A stretch of 64,000 nucleotides of DNA, from assembly GCA_033584155.1 (NCBI GenBank), contig CP138355.1, positions 3,853,826 to 3,917,825 of the forward strand. Direction: 5' to 3'. The stretch's first letter is position 1, and each line of letters starts with the position of its first letter. The position numbers and the translations under genes were made by a program. Shown here one piece after another: positions 6,238 through 41,988 of the stretch. Under the pieces are notes generated by a model. That model searched no databases, was not told the origin of the DNA, and saw only the letters and a program-made list of their open reading frames with translations. The stretch comes from Candidatus Electrothrix scaldis. GTDB taxonomy: Bacteria; Desulfobacterota; Desulfobulbia; Desulfobulbales; Desulfobulbaceae.

Positions 6238-6594
6238 CTGACGGACATGTAAAAGCTGCTGCGCAAGGTGTGAATGCTGCGTTGCAAGATATGAAAGGAG
6301 TTTTTACATGTCTGCATGCTGTGTTTAGATGTTGAGATGCTCTGTTCAAAGGTATGAACAGAGTATTTATACGTTGAAAAGCTTATCACAAACCTTTGAA
6401 AGCTTCCGACAAACGTCTCAACAGAGCTTGCAAAGATATAAAAGCTCTCAACACTCGTTGAAACAGAGGTCTTGGACGAATAAAACCTCCTTGCAAACAT
6501 CTGTAAGCTCTTGCGGGATGTTGTGAAGCTTGTCCTGAACGTCCCAAAGGTTGTTTTGCATGTCTGAAAGCTGGTTGCGGATATGGAGGGGCGG
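6238..6594. repeat. degenerate 21-nt tandem array (17 units)
   Basis: Cutting the sequence every 21 nt from 6238 gives 17 consecutive units without spacers. They share a loose pattern close to TTGCAAAcgTnTGAAAGCT: for example units at 6490 (CTTGCAAACATCTGTAAGCT), 6427 (CTTGCAAAGATATAAAAGCT) and 6553 (GTTTTGCATGTCTGAAAGCT). The period is exactly seven codons, and the minus strand reads S-[FVIM]-x-T-x-x-x heptads across most of it. It fills the whole gap between pepN and the ROCO gene. Not CRISPR: no spacers and no strict repeat. Confidence 0.8.
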
Positions 6595-6678
6595 TTCGCG
6601 AACCGCCCGTACCTCTGTCGGTACAGGCTAAAAGATCAGATTCTTCTTGCGGCGTTTCTTTTGCTGATACAGGATATT

Positions 6679-9411
6679 ATGGCATCGAATGATTTAGAGG
6701 TTATTGAGGAAATAGAGAAGGCGTTGCGGGTGCGGCTGCGAAGGTACGAGCCAAAGTTCAAGCACGAAGATATAACACTCTGTCCTTACAACTATTGTTA
6801 TGTTGTCAATGAGCAGGGGGAAGTGATAGCCTTACGATTGCGCAATGTCAATATTCACTTATTCCTGACTGATCATCCAGAATTAAAAGAATTCAATATT
6901 GAAGAGTTAATCAATAACCAGACCAGCGCCCCCTCTGTCCTTAAAGAACTGCAACCACCTCCACTACACAGGCTTAATTTACGTTATAAGCATTTTTTTC
7001 CCTTTCTCAAAAAATTGAGTCAGCTGCACACTCTTGATTTAAGTGGCAATAATATTGATGACATATCCTTCCTCAAAGACCTTGTCCAGCTGCACACCCT
7101 CAATTTATGCAATAATAATATTCGCGACATTTCTGCTCTCAAGAATCTCAAAAAACTACAATACATTAATCTATCAAGAAATAATATTGAGGACATTTCT
7201 GTCATCAGGAATTTTCTTTTTCTTAAAGAATTAAATGTGGAAAACAACAGTATTGCCAAACTCCAAAGTTGGATAATTGAGCTTCCCCCAAAACTTTTCT
7301 TTTTGGCTAAATACAGATTTATAACGCCAAAAGATAAAATCAATAAAATAAATGTTAGCGGAAATCCCTTGACCAGCCCCCCACCGGAAATCATCAAGCA
7401 GGGCTGCGAAGCCATCCGCGCCTATTTCCAATCCCTGGAAAAGGAAGAGACCGTTCGCTTGCACGAGGCCAAAATCCTCCTGGTCGGAGAAGGCATGGCA
7501 GGTAAAACCTCGCTCCTCAAACGCCTTCAGGGTCTGGACTTTGACAAAAAGGAATCCCAAACCCACGGCATCAACGTTCTCTCCCTTTCCAGCAACCAAC
7601 TCCCCGGCTTCAACAACGACGATGAATGCCGCCTCCACTTCTGGGACTTCGGCGGCCAGGAGATCATGCACGCCTCCCACCGCTTCTTCATGAGCAACCG
7701 CTCCCTCTACATCCTGGTCCTGGACAGCCGCACCGACAGCAGGAAATTTCATTGGCTCCGCCATATCGAGAAGTACGGCGGCAAGTCGCCGCTCATCGTG
7801 ACCATGAACAAGATCGACCTCAATCCCTCCTATAATATCGAACAGAAGAGCATCAATTCCCGCTTCCCTTGGATCAACAATCGCTTCTTCCGTATCTCCT
7901 GCAAAAATCAGGACGGCCTGCCGGAACTGGTGCGCAGCATTGCCACGGCTGTCCCGAATACCCCGCTCTTCGGCATGGAGATCAGCAAATCCTGGCTGGC
8001 CGTCAGAACCGAGCTGGAACAGGCCACCGGAGCGCAGAACTATATCAACCGGGATCAATTCCTCACCATCTGCGCAAAACACGGGGTGGATGACGAGATC
8101 AGCCGGATGACCCTGCTCAAGCTGCTCAACGATCTGGGCACGGTGCTCTTTTTCGAGAACCTGCCCCTGACCGATATCTATGTCCTTGATCCGCATTGGG
8201 TAACCGTGGGCGTGTACAAGATCATCAACTCGGAACGGACCAAGGACGGTCTCCTCCGCGAGACGGACCTGGAGTTCATCCTCAACGAAGAGAAAATCCG
8301 CTGCGACGAGTATGATCCGGCCAGGGAAAAGCAATTCACCTACACCCGAACTGAGTTACAGTATCTCATCAAAATCATGCAGGAGTTTAAGCTCTGTTAT
8401 CTGTACAGCGAATCAGAGCATCTCTACATCCTGCCCAATCAGCTGCCCAAAGAGCCGGAACAGGAACCGGAGCTGCACGGAGAGAACCTGCTCCGCTTTC
8501 ACATGGAGTACGACTTCCTGCCCACGTCCCTGTTCTCCCGCCTCATGGTCCGCCTGAAAGAGGATATTCAGAACCGACGGCAACAGTGGCGCTACGGGAT
8601 GTTTCTGAAAAATACAGACCATGATGTACAGGCCATCATCAGAATGGAAGAGCAGAATAACCGGATCATGATTACCATCAAGGGCGGGCTGCACAGCAAA
8701 CGGCAGTATCTCTCCATCATCCGGCACGCCATTGAGGGACTTGGTTTTCAGGAGTTGGTCCCGAAGGAGTTAGTTGAATTGCCAGGATATCCAGGGCACT
8801 TCGCTGATTATCAGAACCTACTTGGCTACGAGCGAAAAGGTTGGGATACCTATTGTGACGGTATCTTAGGGGAGTCATTTTCCGTCTCTGATCTACTGGA
8901 TAGTGTGGTCAGCAAAGATGAACGAAACAAAGAAGGAGAACGTAACATGTCAGGAGAACATCATCATTTTCACTTTGAGAATATCGGCAATCCCAATGTA
9001 ACGGTCACCCAAAACAACACGCAGACGGTCAACCAATCTATTGACCTGCTCAAAGACGCCCAGGCACTGTTCCGCAACCTGAAAGAGGATATCCTTGATG
9101 AAGTAGATGACGAAATCGAGGATGAAAAAGAGAAGAAGCGGGTTGCCAGAGAGCTGGACAAGGCAGAAAAAGCCCTGACCGAGGCCAAAGAAGCCGCCGC
9201 CCAAGGCAAGGAACCGGATGCCGCCACCAAGAGCCGCCTGGAGGAATTCTTCACCAGCCTCGCAGATAAGAGCTCCCGCCTGGGTAAGGCCCTGGAGTTT
9301 GTTGACCAGGGCGCGCAAAAGGTGCAGAAGCTCGCCCGAACCTATAACAGCATTGCAGGCAACATCGGCCTGCCCACGGTACCGCCATTGCTGCTGGGCA
9401 AAGAGAAGTGA
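6679..9411 (+). CDS. ROCO protein: LRR-Roc-COR GTPase
   Basis: 910 residues from the chosen ATG (MASNDLEVIEE, preceded by AGGA); the longer frame from 6583 would start inside the repeat array. Order of parts: N-terminal region; leucine-rich repeats (about 95-200, LHTLDLSGNNIDDIS and similar); Roc GTPase with Walker A GEGMAGKTS (about 269), switch WDFGGQE (322) and TMNKID (375); COR dimerisation domain to about 740; then a GEHHHFHFENIGNPN-VTVTQNN segment and a charged helical tail (758-910). Bacterial ROCO proteins are GTP-dependent dimers often found beside unknown effectors. It precedes ptuA by 42 nt on the same strand, so a joint function is possible. Codon use shifts: the LRR part is AT-rich, the Roc-COR part GC-rich. 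Confidence 0.9.
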   Translation: MASNDLEVIEEIEKALRVRLRRYEPKFKHEDITLCPYNYCYVVNEQGEVIALRLRNVNIHLFLTDHPELKEFNIEELINNQTSAPSVLKELQPPPLHRLNLRYKHFFPFLKKLSQLHTLDLSGNNIDDISFLKDLVQLHTLNLCNNNIRDISALKNLKKLQYINLSRNNIEDISVIRNFLFLKELNVENNSIAKLQSWIIELPPKLFFLAKYRFITPKDKINKINVSGNPLTSPPPEIIKQGCEAIRAYFQSLEKEETVRLHEAKILLVGEGMAGKTSLLKRLQGLDFDKKESQTHGINVLSLSSNQLPGFNNDDECRLHFWDFGGQEIMHASHRFFMSNRSLYILVLDSRTDSRKFHWLRHIEKYGGKSPLIVTMNKIDLNPSYNIEQKSINSRFPWINNRFFRISCKNQDGLPELVRSIATAVPNTPLFGMEISKSWLAVRTELEQATGAQNYINRDQFLTICAKHGVDDEISRMTLLKLLNDLGTVLFFENLPLTDIYVLDPHWVTVGVYKIINSERTKDGLLRETDLEFILNEEKIRCDEYDPAREKQFTYTRTELQYLIKIMQEFKLCYLYSESEHLYILPNQLPKEPEQEPELHGENLLRFHMEYDFLPTSLFSRLMVRLKEDIQNRRQQWRYGMFLKNTDHDVQAIIRMEEQNNRIMITIKGGLHSKRQYLSIIRHAIEGLGFQELVPKELVELPGYPGHFADYQNLLGYERKGWDTYCDGILGESFSVSDLLDSVVSKDERNKEGERNMSGEHHHFHFENIGNPNVTVTQNNTQTVNQSIDLLKDAQALFRNLKEDILDEVDDEIEDEKEKKRVARELDKAEKALTEAKEAAAQGKEPDAATKSRLEEFFTSLADKSSRLGKALEFVDQGAQKVQKLARTYNSIAGNIGLPTVPPLLLGKEK
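8934..8949 (+). promoter_or_regulatory. possible internal ribosome binding site and start in the ROCO gene
   Basis: Inside the ROCO reading frame, AGGAG (8934-8938) stands 8 nt before an in-frame ATG (8947-8949). Starting there would give a separate 154-residue protein consisting only of the tail after the COR domain (MSGEHHHFHFENIG onward). The site may be active, or may be a relic of a fusion of two genes. Confidence 0.4.
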
Positions 9412-9453: not shown

Positions 9454-10713
9454 ATGAAGATTCAACGACTCACAATAGAAAACTTTCGGGGCATCAGAGA
9501 GATGGAACTTGCTTTTCATCCCCGACTGAATGTTTTTGCCGGGAAGAATGGTGTTGGCAAAACGACTATCCTGGAAGCATTAGGACAAACAATCGATATT
9601 GCCAGATTAAATCATGTTGCTGGTAATGAGAAACAAAATCTGGAAAGCCGTGGGATAATTAATTCCGATGATACTCAGATAAACGCGGAACACGCCCGGC
9701 TTGATCTGCAATTATCACTAAAGAATCAAACCATAACAACAACAGCAAGCAGTAATCCTGAAGAAATATCCTCTGATCTTTTCAACCATTTTCCAGAAGC
9801 AAATATTAAACTCCCTCACATAACGTTATCAGAGAGCCGTTCGGCAATGGCTGGCACCTATGCTCCTCCTGATAAAACAATGAATATGATATCAGGAATT
9901 GATTCTCTTATCGGTATCATAGTGAATAACACTACCCGATATGGGCATTATTTTGCGTGGATCTCAGAGCGTGAGGCATTGGAGAACAACAGATTAAGAA
10001 AATTTATTGACAGCGGCAAGGTCTTTGGTAAGGATCATTTTGAAAAAGACAATATCCTGCAAAGAGTAAAAAAGGTGATTGAAGATATTACAGGCTTTAG
10101 CGGGTTATTTCATGACAGAGAGCGTTATGGATTCACTCTGCAAAAAGATGTCGGTAAAGAAAAAGATGCGCTCCTTTTTTCCCAGCTCTCTTCCGGCGAA
10201 AAGCATTTAGTCGCCTTTGTAACCATGATAGCGGTATATCTTGCCGCCACTTTTTCAGAATCTACAAACCCCTTACAAGAACAGGCTATTTTTCTCATAG
10301 ATGCTATCGAACTCCACCTGCATCCCTCCTGGCAGCGGGAACTCATCCCCAAACTCCTGCATTCCTTCCCTGGCTGCCAGTTTATCATAACCACCCACTC
10401 ACCGCAGGTACTGGGCAACATCAAGCCGGAATCAATCTTTCTTTTGAAAAGGGAGAATGATGAGATTATCTGTGAGCACCCTGATGAGAGTTACGGAATG
10501 ACAATGGATCGGGTGCTGGAACTGGTCATGGATGAAGAATCGCGCCCGAATAAGAAGATCCGTGAAGATATCGAACACCTTTTTGATCATATCAGCAGAA
10601 AGGAATTCGACAAGGCTTCCCACCTGCTCAAGGCCCTTAAACAGGACATCCCCAGCGATCCGGAGGTCCTGCGGGCAGAGATGTTGTTGCATAAGAAAGG
10701 ACTGTCTTTATGA
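9454..10713 (+). CDS. ptuA: Septu-like AAA/ABC-type ATPase (PtuA)
   Basis: 419-residue RecF/OLD-like ATPase. N-terminal IENFRGIREMEL, Walker A AGKNGVGKTT (about 29-38), signature LSSGEKHL (about 245-252), Walker B FLIDAIELHLHPSW (Asp283) and H-loop ITTHSPQVL are all present. In this family the residue after the Walker B Asp is normally Glu; here it is Ala284 (GCT). The gene overlaps an HNH nuclease gene by 4 nt (ATGA). An ATPase coupled to a TIGR02646-type HNH protein is the layout of Septu anti-phage systems, where PtuA controls the nuclease PtuB. Assignment by architecture only. Confidence 0.82.
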   Translation: MKIQRLTIENFRGIREMELAFHPRLNVFAGKNGVGKTTILEALGQTIDIARLNHVAGNEKQNLESRGIINSDDTQINAEHARLDLQLSLKNQTITTTASSNPEEISSDLFNHFPEANIKLPHITLSESRSAMAGTYAPPDKTMNMISGIDSLIGIIVNNTTRYGHYFAWISEREALENNRLRKFIDSGKVFGKDHFEKDNILQRVKKVIEDITGFSGLFHDRERYGFTLQKDVGKEKDALLFSQLSSGEKHLVAFVTMIAVYLAATFSESTNPLQEQAIFLIDAIELHLHPSWQRELIPKLLHSFPGCQFIITTHSPQVLGNIKPESIFLLKRENDEIICEHPDESYGMTMDRVLELVMDEESRPNKKIREDIEHLFDHISRKEFDKASHLLKALKQDIPSDPEVLRAEMLLHKKGLSL

Positions 10714-11330
10714 AGCATATCAAGAAAAATATGCCGGAACCGGATCAGTTCAGCCGCTGGAAAAAACAAAACAAGACTGCTGGCTGGAATAATTTTTCAG
10801 GAGGGGCAGAATACGGAGAAGTCAAAGAACAACTCATTGCTGAACAGCTTGGGATGTGCTGCTACTGTGAAGTGCTTATATCCCTGGACGCCTGCCATAT
10901 TGAACATCTGCAACCAAAAAGTGTTTATCCGCAGAACATGTTTGCTTATGAGAACCTTCTGGTTTCCTGCAACCGGAAAGGAAGCTGTGGGCGTAAAAAG
11001 GGAAAATGGTATAGCTCTGCTCTGGTATCGCCTTTGGACCAGGATTGTGAAAAACGTTTCACCTATACCCTTGATGGCAGGATAATTCCATCAGATAAAG
11101 AAGATGTGTCCGCCTTTGAAACCATAGAGAAACTCGGATTAAATTGCTCTCAGCTCAAAGATCGGCGGAGAAGCATCATCATAATGATGGATAACCATGG
11201 AAACGGGCCTGAGCCAAATTATCTGCAAACAGTTACCGCAGGAATATTGCAACGAGAGAAAGCGTGGCCGTTTGGATTTTATACTGTTTTGTTATTTCTG
11301 GCAGAGCTGTATGAAATCCCGATTCCTTAA
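10710..11330 (+). CDS. ptuB: HNH nuclease, TIGR02646 / PtuB-like
   Basis: 206-residue HNH endonuclease. Zinc/HNH pattern: CCYCE (Cys50, Cys51, Cys53), HIEHLQPKS (His63, His66), YENLLVSCNRKGSCG (Asn82, Cys87, Cys93), as in TIGR02646 proteins of Septu and retron-associated modules. These act as the DNA-cutting arm of the system once released by the ATPase. It shares ATGA with the upstream ATPase gene, implying translational coupling. GC and codon use match its partner. Confidence 0.85.
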   Translation: MKHIKKNMPEPDQFSRWKKQNKTAGWNNFSGGAEYGEVKEQLIAEQLGMCCYCEVLISLDACHIEHLQPKSVYPQNMFAYENLLVSCNRKGSCGRKKGKWYSSALVSPLDQDCEKRFTYTLDGRIIPSDKEDVSAFETIEKLGLNCSQLKDRRRSIIIMMDNHGNGPEPNYLQTVTAGILQREKAWPFGFYTVLLFLAELYEIPIP

Positions 11331-29687: not shown

Positions 29688-30089
29688 TTATTCTTCTAAC
29701 AGGGAACAGTTACGGCAAGGGAGACGAAGGGGATGAGACAACCTCATAGTACTTTTATCATAGACCACCAATCCTTGCTCAGTATGGATAAACAACGGAC
29801 GCGCCACAGCATCAATATGTGTCCGCAACGGCGCATAGGTGATAGTGCTGTAACTTACAACATCAACAGCAAATGGTAGAAGACTTTCATGAAACAAGGT
29901 CCACAGGCGGTCACATACCACTTCGTCAGCAGAACCATAGAGCACTAAATCCAGATCAGAGTTAGGACGATGCTTTCCTTGCGCACGGGAACCAAAGACA
30001 GCCACCTGCTCTATGCTCTTCTGGGCTGTATACAAGATTTTCAGAATGAGCTCCCGTTGCTCATCACTCAGGCCAAAATCATCAGTCAT
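29688..30089 (-). CDS. MNT nucleotidyltransferase antitoxin (MntA-like)
   Basis: 133 residues of minimal nucleotidyltransferase. GSRAQGKHRPNSDLD (GS-x10-DxD: Gly33, Ser34, Asp45, Asp47) is the catalytic motif. In HepT/MntA (type VII) systems this enzyme adds AMP to a tyrosine of the HEPN toxin and so silences it. It overlaps the HEPN gene by 4 nt (ATGA). The C-terminal part ends in RLPCRNCSLLEE. Assigned by motif and pairing. Confidence 0.85.
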   Translation of the reverse strand: MTDDFGLSDEQRELILKILYTAQKSIEQVAVFGSRAQGKHRPNSDLDLVLYGSADEVVCDRLWTLFHESLLPFAVDVVSYSTITYAPLRTHIDAVARPLFIHTEQGLVVYDKSTMRLSHPLRLPCRNCSLLEE

Positions 30090-30511
30090 GGCGAGTCTGC
30101 GTTGATCTGCTGAGTCAGTAAGAACTCATGTAGTTCATCAAAGACCGCTAAATAACTGACGTCGATATCGGCAATTACCTGCTCAAAGGTATCAAAATTA
30201 TAGGTGTGCGACATACGATTGCGGGCATCCAGGGCTTTTTGCCAAACGTCACCCTGCGTAATGACTCCTGCCTCGAATGCACGACGAATGACTGCGCGGG
30301 GAGTAATTTGATCAAATACAATGCCTTCGCTCTCCAGATAGTCTTTCAGCGTTTTCCAGGCAAGTTCCATAGTGTATTCAAAACGCTGAATCACGCCTTC
30401 CTTTTCCAGTTGCGTCAGCGGACTTTCCTGTTCGATTGCTTCGCGCAACAAGTTGAAGGCACGTTGGTAATTGTCAAAACGGTAATACCAGCGTGGGGTT
30501 TGGTCAGTCAT
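30086..30511 (-). CDS. HEPN toxin (HepT / HI0074 type)
   Basis: 141 residues, all helical. The RNase motif R-x4-H is Arg97-NRMS-His102, and Tyr104 completes R-x4-H-x-Y, the site AMPylated by MntA in known pairs. The N-terminus (RWYYRFDNYQRAFNLLREA) and middle (EYTMELAWKTLKDYLE) match nucleotidyltransferase-substrate-binding proteins. The gene is upstream of MNT, the usual order. It lies 95 nt past hsdM, at the end of the restriction island. Confidence 0.87.
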   Translation of the reverse strand: MTDQTPRWYYRFDNYQRAFNLLREAIEQESPLTQLEKEGVIQRFEYTMELAWKTLKDYLESEGIVFDQITPRAVIRRAFEAGVITQGDVWQKALDARNRMSHTYNFDTFEQVIADIDVSYLAVFDELHEFLLTQQINADSP

Positions 30512-30606: not shown

Positions 30607-32232
30607 CTAAGGCAAAAGCGGCAAGCCGAGTTCTTCAAGAAAGGCATTATGCTTATTCCTGGCCACCTTGATGTCCTGTTCCAATGCAACCAGATCCTTA
30701 TGAACACCCGGTAGATCAACAGACTCTTCCGGTACAGCTGTACTAATATAACGCGAGATGTTCAGGTTGTAATCGTTCGCCTCAATTTCTTCCAACAGCA
30801 CGCGACGGGAATAACGTTCCTCCTCTTCGCGGAACTGATAGGTGTCGATGATTTTCTCAATATGTTCCGGCTGCAAACGATTCTGTCGTTTAATCTTCTC
30901 AAAGTCTTCACTGGCATTGATAAAGAGCACGTCATCCGGCTTTTTGCATTTTTTCAGGACCAGGATGCAGACCGGAATTCCGGTGGAATAAAACAGCTTG
31001 GCAGGCAGGCCGATCACCGTGTCTATATGCCCGTCTTTGAGCAGCTTGGTACGGATGCGTTGTTCTGCGCCACCCCGGAACAGCACACCGTGGGGCAAAA
31101 TAATAGCCATGACACCGTCAGGCTTGAGGTAATGAAAGCCGTGCAGCAAAAAAGCAAAATCAGCGGCGGACTTGGGTGCTATGCCATGATTCTTGAAGCG
31201 CACATCTTCGCCTAAAGCTTCAGTGGGCTGCCAACGATAGCTGAAAGGCGGATTGGCCACAACTGCATCAAACCTGGGCATTTTGGCCGGGTTGGTTTCA
31301 CGCAGCATATCCCAGTCATTGGTAAGCGTATCGCCATGATACATTGCGAACTCGGAATCTTTGACCCCGTGCAGGAGCATGTTCATCCGGGCCAGGTTAT
31401 AGGTGGTGATATTCTTTTCCTGCCCGTAGATTTTACCGATACCGTTAGGGCCTAATCGACCGCGCACGTTGAGTAACAGCGAGCCGGAGCCGCAGGCAAA
31501 ATCCAAAACGCTTTCCAGGTATTTTTTCCTGCCGGTAACGGGTTCCTGGCAGTCTAAAATGACGATAGCAGAAAGGATACTGGAGATCTGCTGAGGCGTG
31601 TAGAACTCGCCTGCTTTTTTGCCGGAACCAGCAGCAAATTGGCCGATAAGGTATTCATAGGCATCACCCAGGGTATCGCTGTCCGTGGAAAACCGGGCCA
31701 GCCCGTCGGCAATCTTGGTAATGATTGTGCAGAGTTTACCATTGCGGGCTGGGTAGTCTTTGCCCAGTTTTTCGGAATTCAGATTGATTTCAGAGAACAA
31801 TCCACCAAAGGTGCTGGCAAAAGATTCGTTTTCTATATACTTAAAGCCTTTCTCCAAGGTACGCAGCAAGTTATCATCCTGCTTACGGGCCATCTCTGCA
31901 ATATTGCCCCAGAGGAAATCAGGCTCAATCACATAATGGACCTTACGGCGCATTTGTTTTTCAAATTCGACAATGTCCTTTTTATTCTCTCCATACCAAA
32001 TTTGCAGCGGTGTCGTTGCACCGAGTCTTTTCATAATATCTTCTTTGGTATCATCGGGATAATCTCGGCCCAACTCCTTCTTTACAGCGGCCTCGTAATT
32101 ATCCGACAAATAACGCAGGAAGAGAAAGGAAAGCATGTAATCGCGGAAATCGTCCGCGTTCATTGCCCCGCGCAGTTGATCGGCAATGGCCCAGAGGGTA
32201 CTGCCCAGTTGTTTTTGATCGTGTTCGGTCAT
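30607..32232 (-). CDS. hsdM: type I restriction-modification methyltransferase subunit
   Basis: 541 residues. N-terminal helical domain (LWAIADQLRGAMNADDFR, LSFLFLRYLS), GEFYTP (208-213), SAM motif FACGSG (245-250), and catalytic NPPF (327-330) typical of adenine methyltransferases. HsdM joins HsdS to methylate the host target. Length is normal. It starts by sharing one base with the stop of the PrrC-like gene (TAATG); the hsdR-hsdS-hsdM order is interrupted by accessory genes. Confidence 0.95.
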   Translation of the reverse strand: MTEHDQKQLGSTLWAIADQLRGAMNADDFRDYMLSFLFLRYLSDNYEAAVKKELGRDYPDDTKEDIMKRLGATTPLQIWYGENKKDIVEFEKQMRRKVHYVIEPDFLWGNIAEMARKQDDNLLRTLEKGFKYIENESFASTFGGLFSEINLNSEKLGKDYPARNGKLCTIITKIADGLARFSTDSDTLGDAYEYLIGQFAAGSGKKAGEFYTPQQISSILSAIVILDCQEPVTGRKKYLESVLDFACGSGSLLLNVRGRLGPNGIGKIYGQEKNITTYNLARMNMLLHGVKDSEFAMYHGDTLTNDWDMLRETNPAKMPRFDAVVANPPFSYRWQPTEALGEDVRFKNHGIAPKSAADFAFLLHGFHYLKPDGVMAIILPHGVLFRGGAEQRIRTKLLKDGHIDTVIGLPAKLFYSTGIPVCILVLKKCKKPDDVLFINASEDFEKIKRQNRLQPEHIEKIIDTYQFREEEERYSRRVLLEEIEANDYNLNISRYISTAVPEESVDLPGVHKDLVALEQDIKVARNKHNAFLEELGLPLLP

Positions 32233-33332
32233 TATGAGTTACTGTTGGAGGTGCTCGTCTCTGCCAGAACCTCAGGCAAAGCAAATTGATAACGATTGAG
32301 AAAGGCGTTCAGGATTTGGCAAAAGAGTTGTTTGGTATCTTCGACCATCTCGCGGGGTTCATAGATGGCGTATTTGCCGTGACTGAGAAGATTCAAGGCA
32401 CGGGCATAAAGGACTTCGTCTTCCACGCCGTGGATGCAGGTAGAAAAGTCATCGTGTCCGAAAAAAATAGCGGTTTTCTCAAGGATACTGCGCAGCATAT
32501 TGAAGTGGTACGTATAGAGGGTGCCGGAATCCGCAGCCTTCTGAAGCTCACTCAACATGGCAACGTGGTGAAAAAATGGTGTCTCGTCTGTCGAGCGGAG
32601 GGTATATTCGCTGCCCCGGTTCGGTCGGTGCAGAAAATACTTTTTATGGGACTGCTTTTTCAATTCATTGCAGACGACATTGAAAAAAAGGGAGTGGTGA
32701 GAGGAAATGACCACTTTAAATTGATCCTTTCCTCTTCTCAGTAACTTTGCCAGATCACTCGCAACAGCGATAGCATTATTGTCATCAAGAGAGGAAATGG
32801 GGTCATCAATGTAGATGTATTTAACCCAGGCATAAGAAGAGTCGCCATCAAAGACACGCTCACAGATCGCCATAAACAGGCACCAGATAAAAACATTCTC
32901 CTCGCCGCGAGATACTTTGATATTTTCTTGCTCGCCTTTACGAAAAGAGATGGCCCATCTTTCATAGTCAATATCAAAGTCAAAGTCGGCATAACGACCA
33001 AGATAGGCCTGAATGTTCTCCTCAAGGGCCAATTCCTTAATTCCAGAAAAAAACAGAGATGCTGAATTGAGTTGTAACACCCTCTCGCTGTCGCCTTCGA
33101 GATCGTTGTCCCAAATAAACAAATCTTCAGTGAAGGCATTAAAATAAAGCGTATCGGGATTACCTCTGTTCTTTCGCTTGCCCGCATCCTTAAATTCCAT
33201 AGAAAGGCGCGTTTTCCCTGTGCCGTTGTATGCATAGAGCAAGACAAAATCTCGGTTATTGAGATCGTCACGTAATCTAGTTGCCAGTTGACGCAACGCC
33301 GGATATTGAAATATCTTCCGGCTACCGCTCAC
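32232..33332 (-). CDS. PrrC-like ATPase / anticodon nuclease candidate
   Basis: 366 residues from a GTG start overlapping an hsdS-tail fragment. ATPase parts: Walker A NGTGKT (36-41), signature SRGEEN (141-146), Walker B IYIDDPISSLDD (173-184), switch ISSHH (209-213). The C-terminal region carries R281-x3-E285 (LRSILE) and His318 in NLLSHG, 33 residues after Glu285. E. coli PrrC uses Arg320, Glu324 and His356 with nearly the same spacing, and also sits inside a type I restriction locus. PrrC cuts tRNA-Lys when the restriction enzyme is inhibited. This gene is therefore a strong candidate, not proven; other AAA_13 ATPases share the motif. Confidence 0.7.
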   Translation of the reverse strand: MSGSRKIFQYPALRQLATRLRDDLNNRDFVLLYAYNGTGKTRLSMEFKDAGKRKNRGNPDTLYFNAFTEDLFIWDNDLEGDSERVLQLNSASLFFSGIKELALEENIQAYLGRYADFDFDIDYERWAISFRKGEQENIKVSRGEENVFIWCLFMAICERVFDGDSSYAWVKYIYIDDPISSLDDNNAIAVASDLAKLLRRGKDQFKVVISSHHSLFFNVVCNELKKQSHKKYFLHRPNRGSEYTLRSTDETPFFHHVAMLSELQKAADSGTLYTYHFNMLRSILEKTAIFFGHDDFSTCIHGVEDEVLYARALNLLSHGKYAIYEPREMVEDTKQLFCQILNAFLNRYQFALPEVLAETSTSNSNS

Positions 33333-33424
33333 TTTCTGGCCTCGTCAAGCGCAGGAAAAAGCTGCTGCATCAGTCCTTTTTTATGGATCTTAAGCGTTTC
33401 GATTTTTTGGGCTTGTTCAGTCAT
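33329..33424 (-). pseudogene. hsdS 3' tail fragment, copy 2
   Basis: A 31-codon frame, MTEQAQKIETLKIHKKGLMQ then QLFPALDEARK, that matches the C-terminus of the complete HsdS. Its ATG overlaps the stop of the 65-aa gene and its TGA overlaps the GTG of the PrrC-like gene. It can be translated, but is only an HsdS end piece and probably serves as a translational coupler or a recombination scar. Confidence 0.8.
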
Positions 33425-33618
33425 TGATTTTTTCCTTCCGGACTCTTGCGGCGTAACTCATCTGCTGATATATGCACCAGTTTTTCATCCTGCACAAGGA
33501 CAATGCCGGTGTCAGTTTGGACGGCGACTTTGCGGGCCAGTTTGGCAGCCCGCTGCATAGCAGCCACTGAGGCACGCAGGTCAGGATTTTTGGCATTGGC
33601 AATATCTTGTGCGCTCAT
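33421..33618 (-). CDS. 65-aa protein of the restriction island
   Basis: 65 residues, MSAQDIANAKNPDLRASVAA with a helical front and the strand-like TGIVLVQDEKLVHISADELR back. It has the size and pattern of a small antitoxin-like or hsd-associated protein, but no family was recognised with certainty. It shares ATGA with the end of one hsdS-tail fragment and its own stop overlaps the start of another, so it is a cassette of its own. Good codon pattern argues that it is real. Confidence 0.6.
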   Translation of the reverse strand: MSAQDIANAKNPDLRASVAAMQRAAKLARKVAVQTDTGIVLVQDEKLVHISADELRRKSPEGKNQ

Positions 33619-33728
33619 CCCTGCACCTCATCAAGCGATGGAACGAGCTGCTGCATCAGCCCTTTTTTATGGCCCTTGAGCGTATTGATTTTTTTGGCTT
33701 GAGCAGTCAAAAGGGGGCTATCCATCAT
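33615..33728 (-). pseudogene. hsdS 3' tail fragment, copy 1
   Basis: A 37-codon frame beginning MMDSPLLTAQAKKINTLKGH and ending LMQQLVPSLDEVQG, the same end as the complete HsdS (LMQQLFPSLDEVQG). It overlaps the DUF1016 stop (ATGATG) at the front and the 65-aa gene start at the back. The DNA is nearly identical to the hsdS end at 34717-34800. Confidence 0.85.
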
Positions 33729-34720
33729 TTCGTCCCTTCGATCAACCGCTTCTCCCGCTCGATCTCGGCAATCAATTCCTCTTCGGTCGGAAGTATGCGC
33801 TGATACTTTGAGGCAAAAAGTTGCTGGCTCTCCTTGATCACCGAGTATTTGACAATGGTTTCATCCTTGCTGTCGCAAAGAATAATGCCAATGGTGGGGT
33901 TGTCGTCTTCGCCGCGTTTCAGATCATCGAACATGCGCACATACATATCCATTTGACCGATATCCTGATGACTGAGCTTGCCGGTTTTCAGATCAATAAT
34001 GACAAAGCACTTGAGCAGGTAGTTGTAAAAAACCAAATCAATAAAAAAATGGCTGGTTTCAGTGCTGATGCGCATCTGTCGTGCGACGAACGAGAATCCC
34101 TTGCCCAGCTCCAGCAAAAACTTCTGCAACTCATCAATAATCGCCTGCTCCAGTCGGCTCTCTTTTACCTGTCCAGCTTCCGGCAGTTGCAAAAACTCCA
34201 GCACATAAGGGTCTCTGATAAATTCCAGTTGGGCAGCTGCGCCCTGTGTCGGCGATGGCGTGGCCTGGGTTGAAAGCAGGCGTTGAAAGCTCCGGCTTTT
34301 GATATTGCGTTCCAGTTGGCGCACCGTCCAGTTCTGTTCTCTGGCCTCGCGGCAGTAATACTCAATGGCCTGCGACGAATCGACGCGCATAATCAAACGC
34401 AGGTGGCTCCAACTCAATTCTCTACACAGCGTGGAGAGAATTGCCTGATCGGGGAAGGTCAGGTAGAACTGACGGCAGTTATATAAATTGGCGTAGGAAA
34501 AACCTTTGCCGAAATCGGCTGTTAACGCCGTCGATAGCGTTTCAATCAGGCGTTTGCCGTATTGGGCTTTATGCTGCCCAAGCTGTTCCTCTTGCACAAT
34601 CCGTTGCCCAATCAGCCAATAGGCTTCCACCATAGCGGCATTCACCGCCGAACGCGCCTGGCTGCGTGCCTGTTCGAGGATGTTTTTTATGTCCGTGTGA
34701 AAAGAGGTTAAGGTGCTCAT
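33725..34720 (-). CDS. DUF1016/YhcG-type PDDEXK nuclease
   Basis: 331 residues. The DUF1016 N-terminal helical part (EQARSQARSAVNAAMVEAYW, LIGQRIVQEEQLG, YGKRLIETLS, FSYANLYNCRQFYL) precedes a PDDEXK nuclease domain with FIDLVFYN (Asp) and IIDLKTG (Asp-x-Lys). These proteins often accompany type I restriction loci. The gene starts inside the hsdS stop (ATGA) and ends overlapping an hsdS-tail fragment. Role as additional nuclease or regulator unproven. Confidence 0.9.
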   Translation of the reverse strand: MSTLTSFHTDIKNILEQARSQARSAVNAAMVEAYWLIGQRIVQEEQLGQHKAQYGKRLIETLSTALTADFGKGFSYANLYNCRQFYLTFPDQAILSTLCRELSWSHLRLIMRVDSSQAIEYYCREAREQNWTVRQLERNIKSRSFQRLLSTQATPSPTQGAAAQLEFIRDPYVLEFLQLPEAGQVKESRLEQAIIDELQKFLLELGKGFSFVARQMRISTETSHFFIDLVFYNYLLKCFVIIDLKTGKLSHQDIGQMDMYVRMFDDLKRGEDDNPTIGIILCDSKDETIVKYSVIKESQQLFASKYQRILPTEEELIAEIEREKRLIEGTK

Positions 34721-36015
34721 CCCTGCACCTCATCAAGAGATGGAAAAAGCTGTTGCATCAGTCCTTTTTTATGGGCCTTGAGTGTTTCGATTTTCTGGGT
34801 TTGGGCGGTGATCAATTCGTCGATGGAAGTGAGGCAGGCGGCGATTTTTTGTTGTTCTGGGAATAAAGGTACTGAAATTTCCAATGCAAGCACATCAGAC
34901 TTGGTTATATTCTTCATTGAACCAGACGTGCCGGTAGCTAATTCAGACAAAGCAGCCCGTCCTTTTTCTGAGCCGAGTAGAAAAGCTATAAAGCGTATTG
35001 ATGTACCGGACTTTGGCTTTGCAGCCCAAAGTCTGTCAGGAAGAAATATATTCTCAAGGCTGGTCTCAACATACGCGTTAGCACCGACCAGTGCTGGCGT
35101 ATTCATTCTGCTAATAATTATTGTATTCTTGCAAACTGGTTCTTTTAATCGCTGCAATTCACTTTTATCTAAAACAACTTTGTTTTCCAGTGGATTAAAT
35201 ATCCCGTCTGTTACCGCGCTAGTTTTTAGAATTCCGGACTCACTATTCTTGGCAGGTCTATCTCCTGAGACTACGGATACACCTGCATCCAATGAATTTA
35301 CTAACTTTGATAATGGCAATTTCCCCCACTCCCCCGTATCCCGAAACTCAGGAAAGCGCAGCTTGGGCACAGTTTCACCTTCAGCGGGGAAAAGCTGCTG
35401 CATCAACCCTTTTTTATGGGCCTTGAGGGTGGCGAGCTTTTGGGCTTCGACGGTGATCAGTTCGTCAAGAGAAGAAAAACAACTGGCAATTTTCTTTTGT
35501 TCATCTATTTTAGGGATGAAACATTTCCAACTTTCTATAGCTCCTTTAGTTATGTGCATTAGCCCCAAGCCATTGGCCGACTGCGACTTCATTCTTTCAG
35601 TTTCATACCCGAGCAAAATAAACAGAAAGTTCCTATCAACCCAACTTTTCTCCAATACCTTCCAGATGTGATAGTGATAAATTACTTTTTCACCTTGCCA
35701 AATTCTTGGGCCAAAAGAAGCAGACCATGCATAAAGAAGATCACCATTATCACAGTATTTATTTTCCTCCAATTCCAGATCGGAGTAATACCATTGGTTA
35801 TTAGAGAAAAAATTACCTACCCGAAGAACTCTATACTTTCCTTTATCAAGCAGCTCATCTTGTTTGTATGCTCTCCCATTTAAGAAAGATGCTGCGCCGC
35901 CAAAAGTATTTCCATCCCACTCCCCTGCATCCCGAAACTCGGGAAAACGCAACCTAGGCACGAGTGCATTTTTTTCCCCTCGCTTCCCCTTCTTTTCCTC
36001 CTTCTTCTTACTCAT
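34717..36015 (-). CDS. hsdS: type I restriction specificity subunit
   Basis: 432 residues from ATG 36015 (MSKKKEEKKGKRGEK); the longer frame would overlap hsdR more. Two target-recognition domains, each ending in a repeated coiled-coil block: LDELITVEAQKLATLKAHKK then GLMQQLFPAEGE and PKLRFPEFRDTGEW in the middle, LDELITAQTQKIETLKAHKK at the end, with the second copy ending LMQQLFPSLDEVQG. Each TRD reads half of a split target site. The start overlaps the hsdR stop by 8 nt. Its tail has been copied twice downstream. Confidence 0.93.
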   Translation of the reverse strand: MSKKKEEKKGKRGEKNALVPRLRFPEFRDAGEWDGNTFGGAASFLNGRAYKQDELLDKGKYRVLRVGNFFSNNQWYYSDLELEENKYCDNGDLLYAWSASFGPRIWQGEKVIYHYHIWKVLEKSWVDRNFLFILLGYETERMKSQSANGLGLMHITKGAIESWKCFIPKIDEQKKIASCFSSLDELITVEAQKLATLKAHKKGLMQQLFPAEGETVPKLRFPEFRDTGEWGKLPLSKLVNSLDAGVSVVSGDRPAKNSESGILKTSAVTDGIFNPLENKVVLDKSELQRLKEPVCKNTIIISRMNTPALVGANAYVETSLENIFLPDRLWAAKPKSGTSIRFIAFLLGSEKGRAALSELATGTSGSMKNITKSDVLALEISVPLFPEQQKIAACLTSIDELITAQTQKIETLKAHKKGLMQQLFPSLDEVQG

Positions 36016-38995
36016 ACACCCCCAACCCGGAAATCTCCCGCCCCTCAGCAAGCCTGTGCAGCAACGGCATCAAGTCATCCATCAAGGCCAGTTCCGCCTT
36101 AGTCCGAGCCTTCCACCCCAGGTCCAAAGGCATCATCAAATCGCTCAACAGTTCACCGTCAAAGATCATACGGCGCATGATGTTATCCACAAAGCCTTGC
36201 AGAGCAGCTGCCTCCAGCCCGTGTTTGTCAGCGATAACAGCCACTCTCCGGGCATCTTTATCCGCCTTGAATCGTTCAAAACCATCGCGGATCGCCTTTT
36301 CATCCAGCCCCTTGCCAACCTCCAGCGTATCAATATACTCCGCAATATCATCGCGATCATCCATGAACTTGGCATCAGACTGGATCAAACCGACCAATTC
36401 GGCCCGGCTCATCTTCTGCTTCCCCGGTTCCTGCTGCGAGTAGCGGGCGATCAGGGCCATGATATAGTCGTAGTCGATCATGGCAGAGGCAAAAAGCACA
36501 AACTCGAAGTCAAGCTGCTCAACTTCCGGGATGGTTTCCTCACCGTCTTTTTTGTCCTGCTTCTCTTTCAGGCGTTGAGCCGTTTCCAGATACACGCCTT
36601 TAAAACCCTGCAACTGCTCCTTGGGCAGTACCTGCTCAACCGTCTCTTTATGTTCATCGCTCAAGTCGGTGTACTGATCAACCTGGGTCTTGAGACGTTG
36701 CACTTCCTTGAACAGGTTGACAAACTGACTGCGTGCCGCATCCCCCTTGAGGTTGGGCACCTCTTCCGGTTTGTTCTCCAAGCCCTGGGACTGCATAAAG
36801 TCGTCCAGCTTCTGCACTGCGGTTTGCAGCTTTTCGATCACTACCGGTGCCTTGTCCACCAGCCAGATTTCCTTGGCCGGTTTGGTGCCGTCCTGGCCGG
36901 AAAAAAGCGTGATAGCTGTATCCACAGCATCCTGCTGCTGGCGAAAATCAAGGATATTGCCGTAGGGCTTGGTATCGTTGAGCACCCGGTTGGTGCGGGA
37001 AAATGCCTGAATCAGGCCGTGGTATTTGAGATTTTTATCCACATACAGGGTATTGAGATATTTGGAATCAAACCCGGTGAGCAGCATATCCACCACGATC
37101 ACAATATCAATCTTCTCGGCGTGAGGCAGGTCCTTGTTCGGATATTGCTGATCCTTAATGCGCTTTTGCACATCCTGGTAATAGAGATCAAAGTTATTGA
37201 TGTCATGATTGGTATTATATGCACTGTTGTAATCAGCGATGATCGCCTTGAGGGCCGCCTTCTTCCTGTCCGGTTCCTGTTCGTTGTCAGCCTTTTCCTG
37301 GGGCAGGTCTTCCTGAATTTGCTGCACATCCGTATTGCCCTCAGCAGGCGGGGAGAAAACGCAGGTGATGTTCAGTGGCTGAAACTCGTTATCTGCGGCC
37401 TGCTTTTCCGCCTGGAGGCTTTTGAATAATGCGTGGTATTCAATGGCATCATTGATGGAAGCTGTCGCCAGAACAGCATTGAACTTGCGCCCGGCAGTGG
37501 CGGCATCATGCTTGCTCAAAATCGCCTCAACAATGGCCTTTTTCGCTAGAGCCTCACCCGGCTTGGGAATATCCCTGCCTTCAGGTTTGTAATAATCAAC
37601 ATGAAAACGCAGAACGTTCTCGTCCTCAATGGCGTGGGTGATGGTATAGGCGTGGAGCTGCTGCTGAAAAATATCTTCCGTGGTTTTGTAGGATTTTACG
37701 GATTTGCCGGAGGACTGCTGTTCTTCAATCTGAAGAAAGGTAGAATTTTGCTCAAAAATAGGCGTACCAGTGAAACCGAACAGCTGGGCCTTGGGAAAGA
37801 ACTCCTTAATGGCCTTATGATTCTCACCGAATTGCGAACGATGGCATTCATCAAAAATAAAAACCATGCGCTGTTGGCGCAGCGGTTCCAGTTGTTTCTT
37901 ATAATTACGCTTATTGCTGCCATCCAGAGCCAAGCCGAGCTTCTGGATGGTGGTGACAATCACCTTGTCAGCATAGTCGTCAGAGAGCAGCCGCCGCACC
38001 AGGGTTGCGGTGTTGGTATTTTCCTCAACGCAATTCTCCTGGAATTTATTAAATTCTTCCCGTGTCTGCCGGTCAAGGTCTTTGCGATCCACCACGAACA
38101 GGCATTTATCAATATCCGGGTTGTCCTTGAGCAGGGTGGATGCCTTAAAGGAGGTGAGGGTTTTACCGCTGCCCGTGGTGTGCCAGATATAGCCGTTGCC
38201 GCTGTTCTGGTGGATACAATCCACAACAGCCTTGACAGCATAGATCTGGTACGGGCGCATCATCAACAGCTTCTGCTCGTTGGCCACCAACACCATGTAA
38301 CGGCTGATCATCTCCCCCAAGGTGCATTTGGCAAGGAACTTCTCCGCAAAGCTGTCCAAATGGGTGATTTTCTTATTGGCCTGATCCGCAAAACGATAGA
38401 ACGGCAAAAAACGTTCGTCAGCGTTAAAGCTGAAGTGACGACGATTATTATTGGCGAAATACCAGGTATCGTTGCGGTTACTGACAATAAACAGTTGCAG
38501 AAAGCAAAGCAGGGTTTTGCCGTACCCATTACCGGGATCATTTTTATAATCAACGACCTGCTGCATTGCCCGGCGCGGATTCAGAGCCAGGGTTTTCAGC
38601 TCAATCTGGACTACAGGTATACCGTTGATGAGCAGGAGCACATCATAACGATGATGACTGTTGTCGGTGTTAATGCGCAGCTGATTAACGACCTCAAAGC
38701 TGTTTTTGCACCAGTCCGTAACATTCACTAAGGTATAGTGCAGCGGTGTACCGTCGTCACGTTCAAAGGTATTGAGCTCACGCAAATGCCGGGCAGCGAC
38801 AAAGACATCGGGCGTGATCAGCTGCTCCAGCAAACGGGGAAACTCGTTATCGGTCAAATGAACACGGTTCAGTGCCTCGAAATGCTGGCGAAAATTTTGT
38901 TCCAGTCCAGTACGATCACGGATGTCTTGGCGATACGTGTATTTGAGATCGTCCAGCTTTTCGATCAAAGATTGTTCGATTTCTTGCTCAGTCAT
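36008..38995 (-). CDS. hsdR: type I restriction endonuclease subunit R
   Basis: 995 residues. PDDEXK-type nuclease with Asp118 (RYDVLLL) and E132-L-K134 (IELK), then a superfamily 2 translocase: Walker A TTGSGKT (273-279), DECHRSQ box, and later helicase motifs, then a C-terminal HsdS/HsdM-contact part. It translocates and cuts unmethylated DNA. First gene of the operon on the minus strand; no promoter was identified in the 370 nt before it. Overlaps hsdS by 8 nt. Confidence 0.95.
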   Translation of the reverse strand: MTEQEIEQSLIEKLDDLKYTYRQDIRDRTGLEQNFRQHFEALNRVHLTDNEFPRLLEQLITPDVFVAARHLRELNTFERDDGTPLHYTLVNVTDWCKNSFEVVNQLRINTDNSHHRYDVLLLINGIPVVQIELKTLALNPRRAMQQVVDYKNDPGNGYGKTLLCFLQLFIVSNRNDTWYFANNNRRHFSFNADERFLPFYRFADQANKKITHLDSFAEKFLAKCTLGEMISRYMVLVANEQKLLMMRPYQIYAVKAVVDCIHQNSGNGYIWHTTGSGKTLTSFKASTLLKDNPDIDKCLFVVDRKDLDRQTREEFNKFQENCVEENTNTATLVRRLLSDDYADKVIVTTIQKLGLALDGSNKRNYKKQLEPLRQQRMVFIFDECHRSQFGENHKAIKEFFPKAQLFGFTGTPIFEQNSTFLQIEEQQSSGKSVKSYKTTEDIFQQQLHAYTITHAIEDENVLRFHVDYYKPEGRDIPKPGEALAKKAIVEAILSKHDAATAGRKFNAVLATASINDAIEYHALFKSLQAEKQAADNEFQPLNITCVFSPPAEGNTDVQQIQEDLPQEKADNEQEPDRKKAALKAIIADYNSAYNTNHDINNFDLYYQDVQKRIKDQQYPNKDLPHAEKIDIVIVVDMLLTGFDSKYLNTLYVDKNLKYHGLIQAFSRTNRVLNDTKPYGNILDFRQQQDAVDTAITLFSGQDGTKPAKEIWLVDKAPVVIEKLQTAVQKLDDFMQSQGLENKPEEVPNLKGDAARSQFVNLFKEVQRLKTQVDQYTDLSDEHKETVEQVLPKEQLQGFKGVYLETAQRLKEKQDKKDGEETIPEVEQLDFEFVLFASAMIDYDYIMALIARYSQQEPGKQKMSRAELVGLIQSDAKFMDDRDDIAEYIDTLEVGKGLDEKAIRDGFERFKADKDARRVAVIADKHGLEAAALQGFVDNIMRRMIFDGELLSDLMMPLDLGWKARTKAELALMDDLMPLLHRLAEGREISGLGVYE

Positions 38996-39763: not shown

Positions 39764-40080
39764 TTATTTTCGCCAAGGCCTGATCACGATGGTGGAAATC
39801 GAGTTCTTGGGTGAACCGTCAATAAGCTTATCCGAATAGGTCAGATAGATTAACGTATTACGTTTGGGATCATAAAAACGCACTACCTGCAATTTCTTAA
39901 ACAGGATGGAGGTGGATTTACGAAAAACCTGCTCTCCATCATCCTTGCCATTGGCCACATCCTCGGGCAGGGTGATCGGCCCGGTCTGGCGACAGGCAAG
40001 GGAGGCATCGGATTTGTCTTCGGCCAGGCCCACAGTGCCCTTGATGCCACCGGTCTTGGCCCGACTGAGGTAGCAGGTTG
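39764..40080 (-). CDS. creA: CreA family protein, N-terminus lost
   Basis: The C-terminal ~105 residues of a CreA-like periplasmic protein: [53 protein letters not shown] and [15 protein letters not shown] match the family well. The start and signal peptide are missing because the frame runs into a block of homopolymers at about 40081. The gene is probably intact in the real genome. CreA's function is unknown. Confidence 0.75.
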
Positions 40081-40518
<438 letters not shown>

Positions 40519-41988
40519 AGAAAAAACATCCAGGGGACCATTACCGTTGCCCTGGAGCTGCCGTTCTTCGCCCCCAACAACAACGATGGCCTCAATAGTG
40601 GCGGTAGAACGTTCCTCCTGCTGGTCAATATGGCGTTTCACCACATTAAACTCTTTGAGTCGATAGTATCCTTCCTCACGCAGATATTCCCGCTCAAAAA
40701 CACCATACACTGCCTTGTTCGATAATTCACTGCCAACCTTTTCCGTCTCTTCCTGTACCACCCGCCCAAAACCAGGCCGCATTGCCTTGGGCAGCTTAAA
40801 GCCGAATTGCCGATCCATGATATAGGCGGCTCCACCCTTGCCGGACTGGCTATTAATACAGATGATGGACTCATAGCTCCGGCCCACATCTTCGGGATCA
40901 ATAGGCAGATAGGGCACGGCCCAGACGCCGGAGGCATCGTCAGCCACCGCATCCATCCCCTTGCTGATGGCATCCTGATGGGAGCCGGAAAAAGCGGTGT
41001 AGACCAAGTCTCCTGCATAGGGATGGCGAGGATGTACCGGCAGATCCGTGCAGCGTTTATACACATTCACCACCCGATTGATGTTAGAGAAATCCAACTT
41101 CGGGTCTACGCCCTGACTGAACATATTCAGAGCTAAGGTAACGATATCCACATTGCCGGTGCGCTCGCCATTGCCGAACAGGGTACCTTCGATGCGATCG
41201 GCCCCTGCCATCAGGGCCAGCTCCGTTGCGGCGACCGCACTGCCCCGGTCATTATGCGCATGGAGACTGATCAGGGCGCAGTCGCGATTTTTCATATTGC
41301 GGCCAAACCACTCAATCTGATCAGCATAGATATTGGCTGTGGCCATTTCCACGGTCGCGGGCAGGTTGATAACCACCGGTTTCTCCGGGGTGGGCTGCCA
41401 GACCTTCATCACCTCTTCGCAGATCTCCAGGGCAAAATCAAGTTCCGTGCCGGTAAAACTCTCTGGTGAATATTCATAGCGAATATCACCGACAAAGCGC
41501 CCAGCCTCTTCCCGGATAACCTCTGCCCCCTGTACCCCCAGCTGGACAATCTCTTTTCTGTCCATCTTAAAGACCACCTGGCGCTGCAAGGTGGAGGTGG
41601 AGTTATAGAGATGGACAATGGCCTTGCGGGCACCTTGCAGGGCAGCAAAGCTCTTGCGGATCAGATGCTCGCGGGCCTGGGTCAGGACCTGCACCGTCAC
41701 GTCTTCCGGGATCAGGTTATCTTCGATCAACAGGCGAAGAAAATCAAACTCCACCTTGGAGGCCGCCGGAAACCCCACCTCTATTTCCTTGAACCCGATA
41801 TCCACAAGCAGTTGGAACATCTCCAGCTTCTGCTCCAGATTCATGGGCTGACGCAGGGCCTGGTTGCCGTCACGGAGGTCAACAGAGCACCAGAGAGGTG
41901 CCTCGGTGATGGTCTTGTCGGGCCAGGTGCGGTCGTGCAAGGGCACGATCGGGTAGGGACGATACTTCTTCAATTTCTCAGCCTGCAT
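40519..41988 (-). CDS. leuA: 2-isopropylmalate synthase, C-terminus corrupted
   Basis: About 490 clean residues of LeuA (LeuA2, ~550-aa type): first step of leucine synthesis, acetyl-CoA + 2-oxoisovalerate. Catalytic HMG-like barrel ([52 protein letters not shown]) is complete; the regulatory domain is readable to [12 protein letters not shown] and then hits the homopolymer block, so the last ~60 residues are missing. AGAGGA stands 8 nt before the ATG. A leader peptide and terminator lie upstream, so leucine-dependent attenuation is likely. Confidence 0.92.

Follow-up and report, generated by a model that had tools for sequence, protein, structure and literature searches.

hsdS tail fragments between stacked accessory genes of a type I restriction operon in Candidatus Electrothrix scaldis, and related fragments in other genomes

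Organization of the hsd operon

The 64,000-nucleotide stretch of the Candidatus Electrothrix scaldis genome analysed here (the window; contig CP138355.1, positions 3,853,826 to 3,917,825, from a genome that is a single contig of 5,089,909 bases) carries a restriction-modification (R-M) operon on its minus strand in the order hsdR, hsdS, a DUF1016 nuclease gene, a first fragment of the hsdS tail, a gene for a 65-aa protein, a second tail fragment, a PrrC gene and hsdM (Table 1). Families were assigned with Pfam, PADLOC and NCBIfam. The HsdR, HsdS and HsdM subunits are encoded together in one operon, score above the curated cut-offs where these are given, and include an HsdR with an EcoR124-type C-terminal domain, which by homology is the make-up of an EcoR124-like type I R-M system. 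The ATG of hsdS lies at 36015, so that the gene overlaps hsdR by 8 nt.

Tail fragments in the window

An earlier note on this DNA had described two short fragments with the same ending as hsdS, each overlapping the accessory gene that follows it. Both fragments are present as described, and each of the five joins from hsdS to PrrC (hsdS/DUF1016, DUF1016/fragment 1, fragment 1/65-aa gene, 65-aa gene/fragment 2, fragment 2/PrrC) is an overlap of 4 nt. Over 95 nt, identity to fragment 1 as the reference was 85% for the hsdS end, 77% for fragment 2 and 61% for a further copy of the tail motif in the middle of hsdS. Within a 66-nt core, all pairs among the four tail copies were 76-85% alike, and the hsdS end was matched at 80% and 85% by the fragments and at 80% by the mid-hsdS copy. 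These core identities led to rejection of the proposal that, across the whole core, the fragments resemble the hsdS end more closely than the internal repeat does.

Fragment 1 and the hsdS end have their last 23 bases, up to and past the stop codon, in common; the mid-hsdS copy does not share these bases, and fragment 2 has only part of them. Because of this shared 3' part, the fragments are taken as copying the terminal tail, stop/start overlap included, and not the internal repeat. The DNA alignment that the earlier note had called for thus separates the fragments from the ordinary repeat inside HsdS in the 3' part and not in the 66-nt core. Most differences from the hsdS end are at third codon positions (fragment 1, 8 of 13; fragment 2, 6 of 10), which suggests, from few sites, that the fragments descend from other working hsdS tails and not from decay of a fresh copy. 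Fragment 1 aligns as a plain truncated hsdS tail.

An explanation by the ordinary internal HsdS repeat, by chance or by assembly error can draw on the equal likeness of the mid-hsdS copy in the 66-nt core, on the many comparison loci that come from metagenome assemblies, and on a corrupt-looking low-complexity stretch in the window itself. We consider it hardly credible: the fragments bear the terminal tail with the stop/start overlap, and no tail match was found in letter-shuffled slot sequences (20 shuffles each for 29 slots of the census given below). Similar structures also recur in separate assemblies, including long contigs of genomes G742 and G777. The tail pattern (at most one mismatch) had four matches in the 5.09-Mb genome, all within this locus, and its backward control had none.

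Table 1. Features of the hsd operon and their positions in the window
Feature	Position	Strand	Evidence
hsdR, restriction subunit	36008-38995	-	TIGR00348 380.6 bits (cut-off 284.55); EcoR124_C (PF12008, Pfam) 239.8 bits
hsdS, complete specificity subunit, ends with full tail	34717-36015	-	Methylase_S, two stretches (scanned piece 34717-36009, from the third codon on)
Mid-hsdS tail-motif copy, ordinary internal HsdS repeat	35360-35454	-	61% to fragment 1 over 95 nt
Cargo 1: DUF1016/YhcG PDDEXK nuclease, 331 aa	33725-34720	-	PF06250, PF17761; PADLOC PDC-S02
Tail fragment 1, 37 codons	33615-33728	-	hsdS-like from LLTAQ on; start not hsdM-like
Cargo 2: 65-aa protein (Y65)	33421-33618	-	relative in L078
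Tail fragment 2, 31 codons	33329-33424	-	first 21 nt hsdM-like, remainder hsdS tail; probable chimera, ambiguous
Cargo 3: PrrC-family protein, 366 aa	32232-33332	-	PADLOC PrrC (PDLC02360), 468 bits; AAA_13
hsdM, methyltransferase subunit	30607-32232	-	TIGR00497 367 bits (cut-off 242.75)

Tail fragments in other genomes

A scan of one genome per species with the fragment pattern gave 19 loci, all of which were scanned and annotated. A separate fragment lay at the matched place in six of them (L010, L011, L014, L015, L019 and L022), and the remaining 13 were hsdS ends, some cut by contig ends; in L017 a chimeric fragment sits elsewhere in the locus than the pattern match. L011, a decayed region without hsdM, was not used. 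The other five read hsdS-RhuM-tail-Fic-hsdM (L010/L066), hsdR-DinD-hsdS-u286-tail-RhuM-hsdM (L014/L071), chimera-RhuM-hsdM (both L015/L062 and L019/L064) and decayed hsdS-PrrC-like remnant-tail-HigBA-tail-RhuM-hsdM (L022/L067). Three loci fetched by their hsdM added PrrC-tail-DUF1016 (L047), u286-tail-PrrC-DinD (L076) and Fic-tail-PrrC (L077). Each tail in these tail-gene-tail loci lies immediately ahead of the next gene, in the position that a full hsdS end would take. RhuM and Fic were matched in Pfam, as were a Bro-N domain in 'DinD' and IrrE-like and HTH domains in 'HigA', and no Pfam match was obtained for 'HigB' and u286; DinD, HigA, HigB, RloB and u286 are working labels.

Cargo order also varies. 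DUF1016 stands before PrrC in the window and after it in L047, and RhuM is upstream of PrrC in L086 and L088 but downstream of it in L075, L098 and L102. The same gene order everywhere without tail copies, which the earlier note had named as one outcome that would speak against its proposal, was therefore not what the other loci presented, with RhuM, Fic, PrrC, DUF1016 and HigBA as cargo.

In viral contigs the fragment pattern gave one match, on a mid-hsdS tail, and the same contig (L005/L047) has the true tail between PrrC and DUF1016; the window hsdS as query gave six viral loci, every one on contigs already collected. In plasmids, tblastn gave 44 records with fragment 1, 43 with hsdM and 107 with PrrC. 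Among the best 60 of these 107 PrrC matches, many have PrrC directly after hsdS and before hsdM, as judged by coordinates. The plasmid stretches read in sequence were L006, L007, L008 and L028, and L028 was rejected as a stacked slot, its hsdS being broken.

In L067 (3805-7300, reverse strand of that stretch), a decayed hsdS, the PrrC-like remnant and two separate tail fragments lie serially before RhuM, as if this slot had been joined more than once and had then decayed.

It is conceivable, but in our estimation unlikely, that the fragments are working parts, either short translated relays or HsdS-tail peptides, duplicated and kept for the ribosome-binding site and stop/start overlap that they supply to the next gene. 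Among ten fragments with a downstream start, nine end in a 4-nt overlap and six have a Shine-Dalgarno (SD)-like motif before it, compared to 16% of random 13-nt windows. One scar is common to L062 and L064. For this count three tails of L067 that lack a downstream start were excluded, and the L077 tail was classed as a fragment and the contig-end hsdS of L023 as hsdS by hand. However, hsdS ends are alike in both respects (overlap in 23 of 31, SD-like motif in 24 of 31), so that the fragments may merely inherit them, and five of the ten fragments came from a pattern that required ATGA before and RTGA after the tail. In addition, the L047 tail is out of frame with PrrC and lacks a start of its own at the join, and a role as working parts leaves the hsdM or hsdS starts found within fragments, as described below, unexplained.

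Chimeric fragments at the hsdS-hsdM and hsdR-hsdS junctions

Some of the fragments between hsdS and hsdM prove, on alignment, to be chimeras, with a 5' part from the downstream core gene and a 3' part from the upstream one, a feature new here. The fragment of L062/L064 consists of hsdM codons 1-30 followed by an hsdS tail. In L070, 53 nt of an hsdM start run into 106 nt of an hsdS end with 9 nt common to both, CATCGCCGA, and the chimeric open reading frame (ORF) is frameshifted further on. The first 22 nt of the L066 fragment match the hsdM start of the same locus at 21 of 22 positions, the remainder is hsdS end, and 13 nt are common to both. Fragment 2 of the window agrees with the L099 hsdM start in 19 of 21 nt, with 12 nt common to both parents, and it is probably an hsdM-hsdS chimera, although ambiguous. 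In a smaller locus set its best hsdM-start match was 18 of 21, which was equalled by about 0.25% of 4000 random ATGs, a null that includes real hsdM starts and has its floor near 0.2%. The fragments of L047 and L077 are bare tails.

The same was seen between hsdR and hsdS. The hsdR-hsdS slot of L025 reads DUF1016, then 75 nt of an hsdS 5' end joined to about 144 nt of an hsdR tail, then a second DUF1016 gene and hsdS. In L088, DinD is followed by an hsdS-like start (MSSKAEE) joined to an hsdR tail (34 bits) and then hsdS, and in L056 by a short hsdR tail (19 bits) and hsdS. With A and B as the core genes on either side of a slot, the scar is thus either a start of B joined to a tail of A or a bare tail of A. 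Such scars arise when two copies of the slot are joined head to tail and not by plain insertion of a gene, and the chimeras look like scars from such joining.

The earlier note had proposed that accessory genes enter at the hsdS 3' end, each with its own tail. Entry at the hsdS 3' end is borne out, but not only there, in view of the hsdR tails at the hsdR-hsdS junction of L025, L056 and L088, and some fragments begin as the hsdM 5' end. Therefore, the joined unit would be a slot, composed of an upstream tail, cargo and a downstream start, and not a gene with its tail.

Likeness of cargo within and between slots

Full-length DinD-like proteins were 79-83% alike among four of the hsdR-hsdS slot and 84-92% among four of the hsdS-hsdM slot, whereas they were 51-57% alike between slots; the truncated DinD of L077 stands outside these ranges. 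DUF1016 proteins were 80-90% alike among three of the hsdS-hsdM slot and 29-59% to four of the hsdR-hsdS slot. RhuM was as varied within the hsdS-hsdM slot (L066 and L067 versus the rest, about 41-51%) as between slots, which runs against a strict slot rule. DinD-like cargo is thus tied to its slot, which speaks against free cassettes and is what exchange by way of the flanking core genes would produce; on balance, the comparisons fit such exchange better. The cassette-like mobility that the earlier note had suggested was thus not upheld for DinD-like cargo, and one DUF1016 copy of L025 does not fit this pattern.

Site-specific cassettes, in which gene plus tail form the mobile unit and a recombinase acts at the tail, would account for a tail core that is conserved while the cargo varies. 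However, the 5' ends of the fragments vary by locus, several being chimeric, without a fixed crossover point, hsdM or hsdS starts lie inside the scars, and DinD-like cargo is slot-specific, and we hold this explanation to be very improbable. Of the window's 46 ORFs with 120 aa or more, 17 were scanned with Pfam, and no integrase, recombinase or transposase was found among these 17.

Census of hsdS-hsdM slots

The frequency of fragments was determined in relatives fetched by hsdM and not by tails, with the window hsdM as the query and the L071 hsdM for part of the set from two families. The census comprised ten genomes, not counting that of the window, from 395 of the same phylum (E ≤ 1e-100) and, with E ≤ 1e-200 in the other genome searches, 12 of 369 genomes in a second group and 8 of 200 in a third, each after two tail-selected genomes had been removed, and 11 further genomes from two families. 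Together with 12 viral contigs and the window, there were 54 loci. Although G396 and G403 had served as centres for two of the genome groups, the loci of the tail-selected genomes G395, G396, G403 and G404 as well as plasmids were kept outside the census; the contig of L047, which is included, had also matched the fragment pattern. Seventeen loci with no hsdS of at least 150 aa upstream on the stretch were excluded, and 37 complete hsdS-hsdM slots remained. Unlabelled ORFs of at least 90 aa were taken as cargo (for example in L082 and L107), some of which may not be genes, a 58-aa RhuM remnant in L072 was not, and a decayed tail in L078 that scored below 15 bits was not counted as a fragment.

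None or one cargo ORF was present in 22 slots (PrrC in 13), and two or more in 15. A tail fragment of at least 15 bits was found in four of the 15 multi-cargo slots (the window, L047, L076 and L077) and in none of the 22 others (Fisher p = 0.021; 3/14 and p = 0.051 without the window). A smaller census of 29 slots gave fragments in 4 of 11 multi-cargo slots and 0 of 18 others. These numbers, which are borderline, suggest that fragments go with stacking of cargo.

A proposed slot-joining model for the stack

We consider it somewhat better than an even chance that the stack arose by the joining of slots. In favour of this are the unambiguous chimeras of L062/L064, L070, L066 and L025, the occurrence of census fragments in multi-cargo slots and not in the others, the varied cargo with both orders of the same genes, and the slot-bound DinD-like proteins. 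According to this model, an EcoR124-like type I operon of the order hsdR-hsdS-hsdM would offer two cargo slots, one between hsdR and hsdS and one between hsdS and hsdM, and in the hsdS-hsdM slot of the window the DUF1016 nuclease gene, the 65-aa gene and PrrC would have been stacked by successive joins, each new slot being placed ahead of the resident one. On one side, the core genes of an incoming hsdS-X-hsdM would pair with those of the resident locus; on the other, the DNA would run from where X ends, or from the beginning of the hsdM that follows it, into the resident hsdS tail through short homology or none. The predicted product is hsdS, X, an hsdM start joined to an hsdS tail or a bare hsdS tail, Y and hsdM, with the core and cargo genes all intact. 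The scar would be left as a mini-ORF whose start overlaps the stop codon of X and whose end overlaps the start codon of Y, and translation could then pass along the stack. PrrC would have arrived first and DUF1016 last. The probable route is homology-facilitated illegitimate recombination, in which one side is formed by a homologous crossover and the other by an illegitimate join, and the junctions have little or no homology (13 nt in L066, 12 nt in window fragment 2, 9 nt in L070 and none in L062).

The same products could also have been left by tandem duplication of the whole locus to R-S-X-M-R-S-Y-M and subsequent loss of the DNA between the start of the first hsdM and the tail of the second hsdS, an explanation to which we give a minor but real chance. 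Its scars would be identical to those of slot joining, L107 has two tandem hsdR remnants with cargo between them, and large internal deletions do occur in such loci, since L105 (6529-8016) and L079 (7844-8464, reverse strand) fuse an hsdR start to a PrrC end with hsdS gone. On the other hand, this explanation requires a stage with two restriction systems present, and among the loci read L107 alone has a tandem remnant.

Several observations weigh against slot joining. The L062 join has no shared bases, and the hsdS-like start in L088 was assessed by eye. The natural hsdS tail of L050 reads ITEQAQKIETLK, because of which the hsdM origin of window fragment 2 is graded as probable only and the use of this fragment as proof of such an origin was withdrawn; an I-to-M change in an hsdS tail could also account for it. 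The fragments of L076 (MTKQ) and L067 (MSKGKQK) are hsdM-like in protein and weakly so in DNA, and neither window fragment 1 nor the L071 fragment, which is weaker than those of L076 and L067, has a convincing hsdM start. The exceptional DUF1016 of L025, from the hsdR-hsdS slot, is 57-59% alike to copies of the hsdS-hsdM slot and 27-33% to those of its own slot. Eleven of the 15 multi-cargo slots are without any fragment, and stacking therefore often proceeds without trace or by another way. A strain pair from before and after a join was looked for, and none was found.

If slot joining is true, the scars record in readable form how additional weapons may be acquired by type I restriction operons, with a direction (which cargo arrived later) and a testable route, and core-gene ends in other defence operons would be worth scanning for similar chimeras. 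A wider proposal, which we put forward as tentative and rather doubtful as a whole, is that type I core-gene ends serve as general landing pads where slots are joined head to tail, an additive and recombinase-free way to multi-layer defence operons, and that translated scar mini-ORFs couple translation of the stack, with perhaps an HsdS-tail peptide acting on the restriction complex.

Other features of the operon and the window

The window PrrC (residues 10-359) matches its PADLOC profile at positions 19-355 of 372, that is, over nearly its whole length. The 65-aa protein gave no match in the Pfam, PADLOC and NCBIfam scans. It is 53.6% alike to a 75-aa ORF of L078, which follows a Zeta-toxin-like gene (PF06414; L078 7070-7812), and a second relative (49%) lies immediately before hsdM in L073. 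It may be the orphan partner of a lost toxin.

After hsdM, at 29688-30511, the window has a nucleotidyltransferase and substrate-binding pair (MntA-like and HI0074-like), and a pair similar by its first residues lies between the two hsdR remnants of L107. Elsewhere in the window are a Septu-like pair (9454-11330), composed of an AAA ATPase matching PtuA and a partner matching PtuB, and a bacterial LRR-Roc-COR protein of 942 aa (6583-9411). At 40080-40520 a leuA-like gene gives way at its 3' end to some 440 bases made up of long runs of C, G and T, which look like corrupt sequence rather than biology.

Comparison with known systems

In the hsdS inversion loci of Streptococcus, long partial hsdS genes swap recognition domains by inversion. 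These loci resemble the window in having extra partial hsdS beside a complete hsdS, whereas the window fragments are direct, about 95 nt long and without a recognition domain.

The EcoprrI operon of E. coli has the order M-S-PrrC-R. The window operon is likewise an EcoR124-like type I operon that contains a PrrC gene adjoining hsdS, and differs in its order R-S-cargo-M, in having several stacked cargo genes and in its hsdS-tail scars. In the passages drawn on from two sources, the gene for the PrrC anticodon nuclease of EcoprrI is embedded in a type IC hsd operon, and PrrC is held latent by its restriction enzyme and released once a phage blocks the enzyme (PMC3874165, PMC12707154).

PrrC-like, RhuM and Fic/Doc genes beside R-M genes have been read as multilevel defence (PMC3710099). 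The R-M operons described there share cargo families with the loci of this study, and the passages drawn on are silent on scars, chimeras and gene addition. Judged by the families of its cargo, the window stack may likewise provide layered backup defence. Neither tail scars nor core-gene chimeras between hsd cargo genes appeared in the titles or abstract openings among the open-library matches listed; within the literature examined, the company of cargo genes is already known, and stacking scars with their rule were not found.

According to the part of the source drawn on, homology-facilitated illegitimate recombination is known in naturally competent bacteria and in E. coli conjugation (PMC3240628), and a homologous crossover at one end with an illegitimate join at the other would yield the scars observed. 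The route proposed here is read from products alone, in one operon type, and would have been repeated at the same slot. Ordinary recombination swaps one cargo for another, whereas slot joining would add a gene while the restriction enzyme stays whole.

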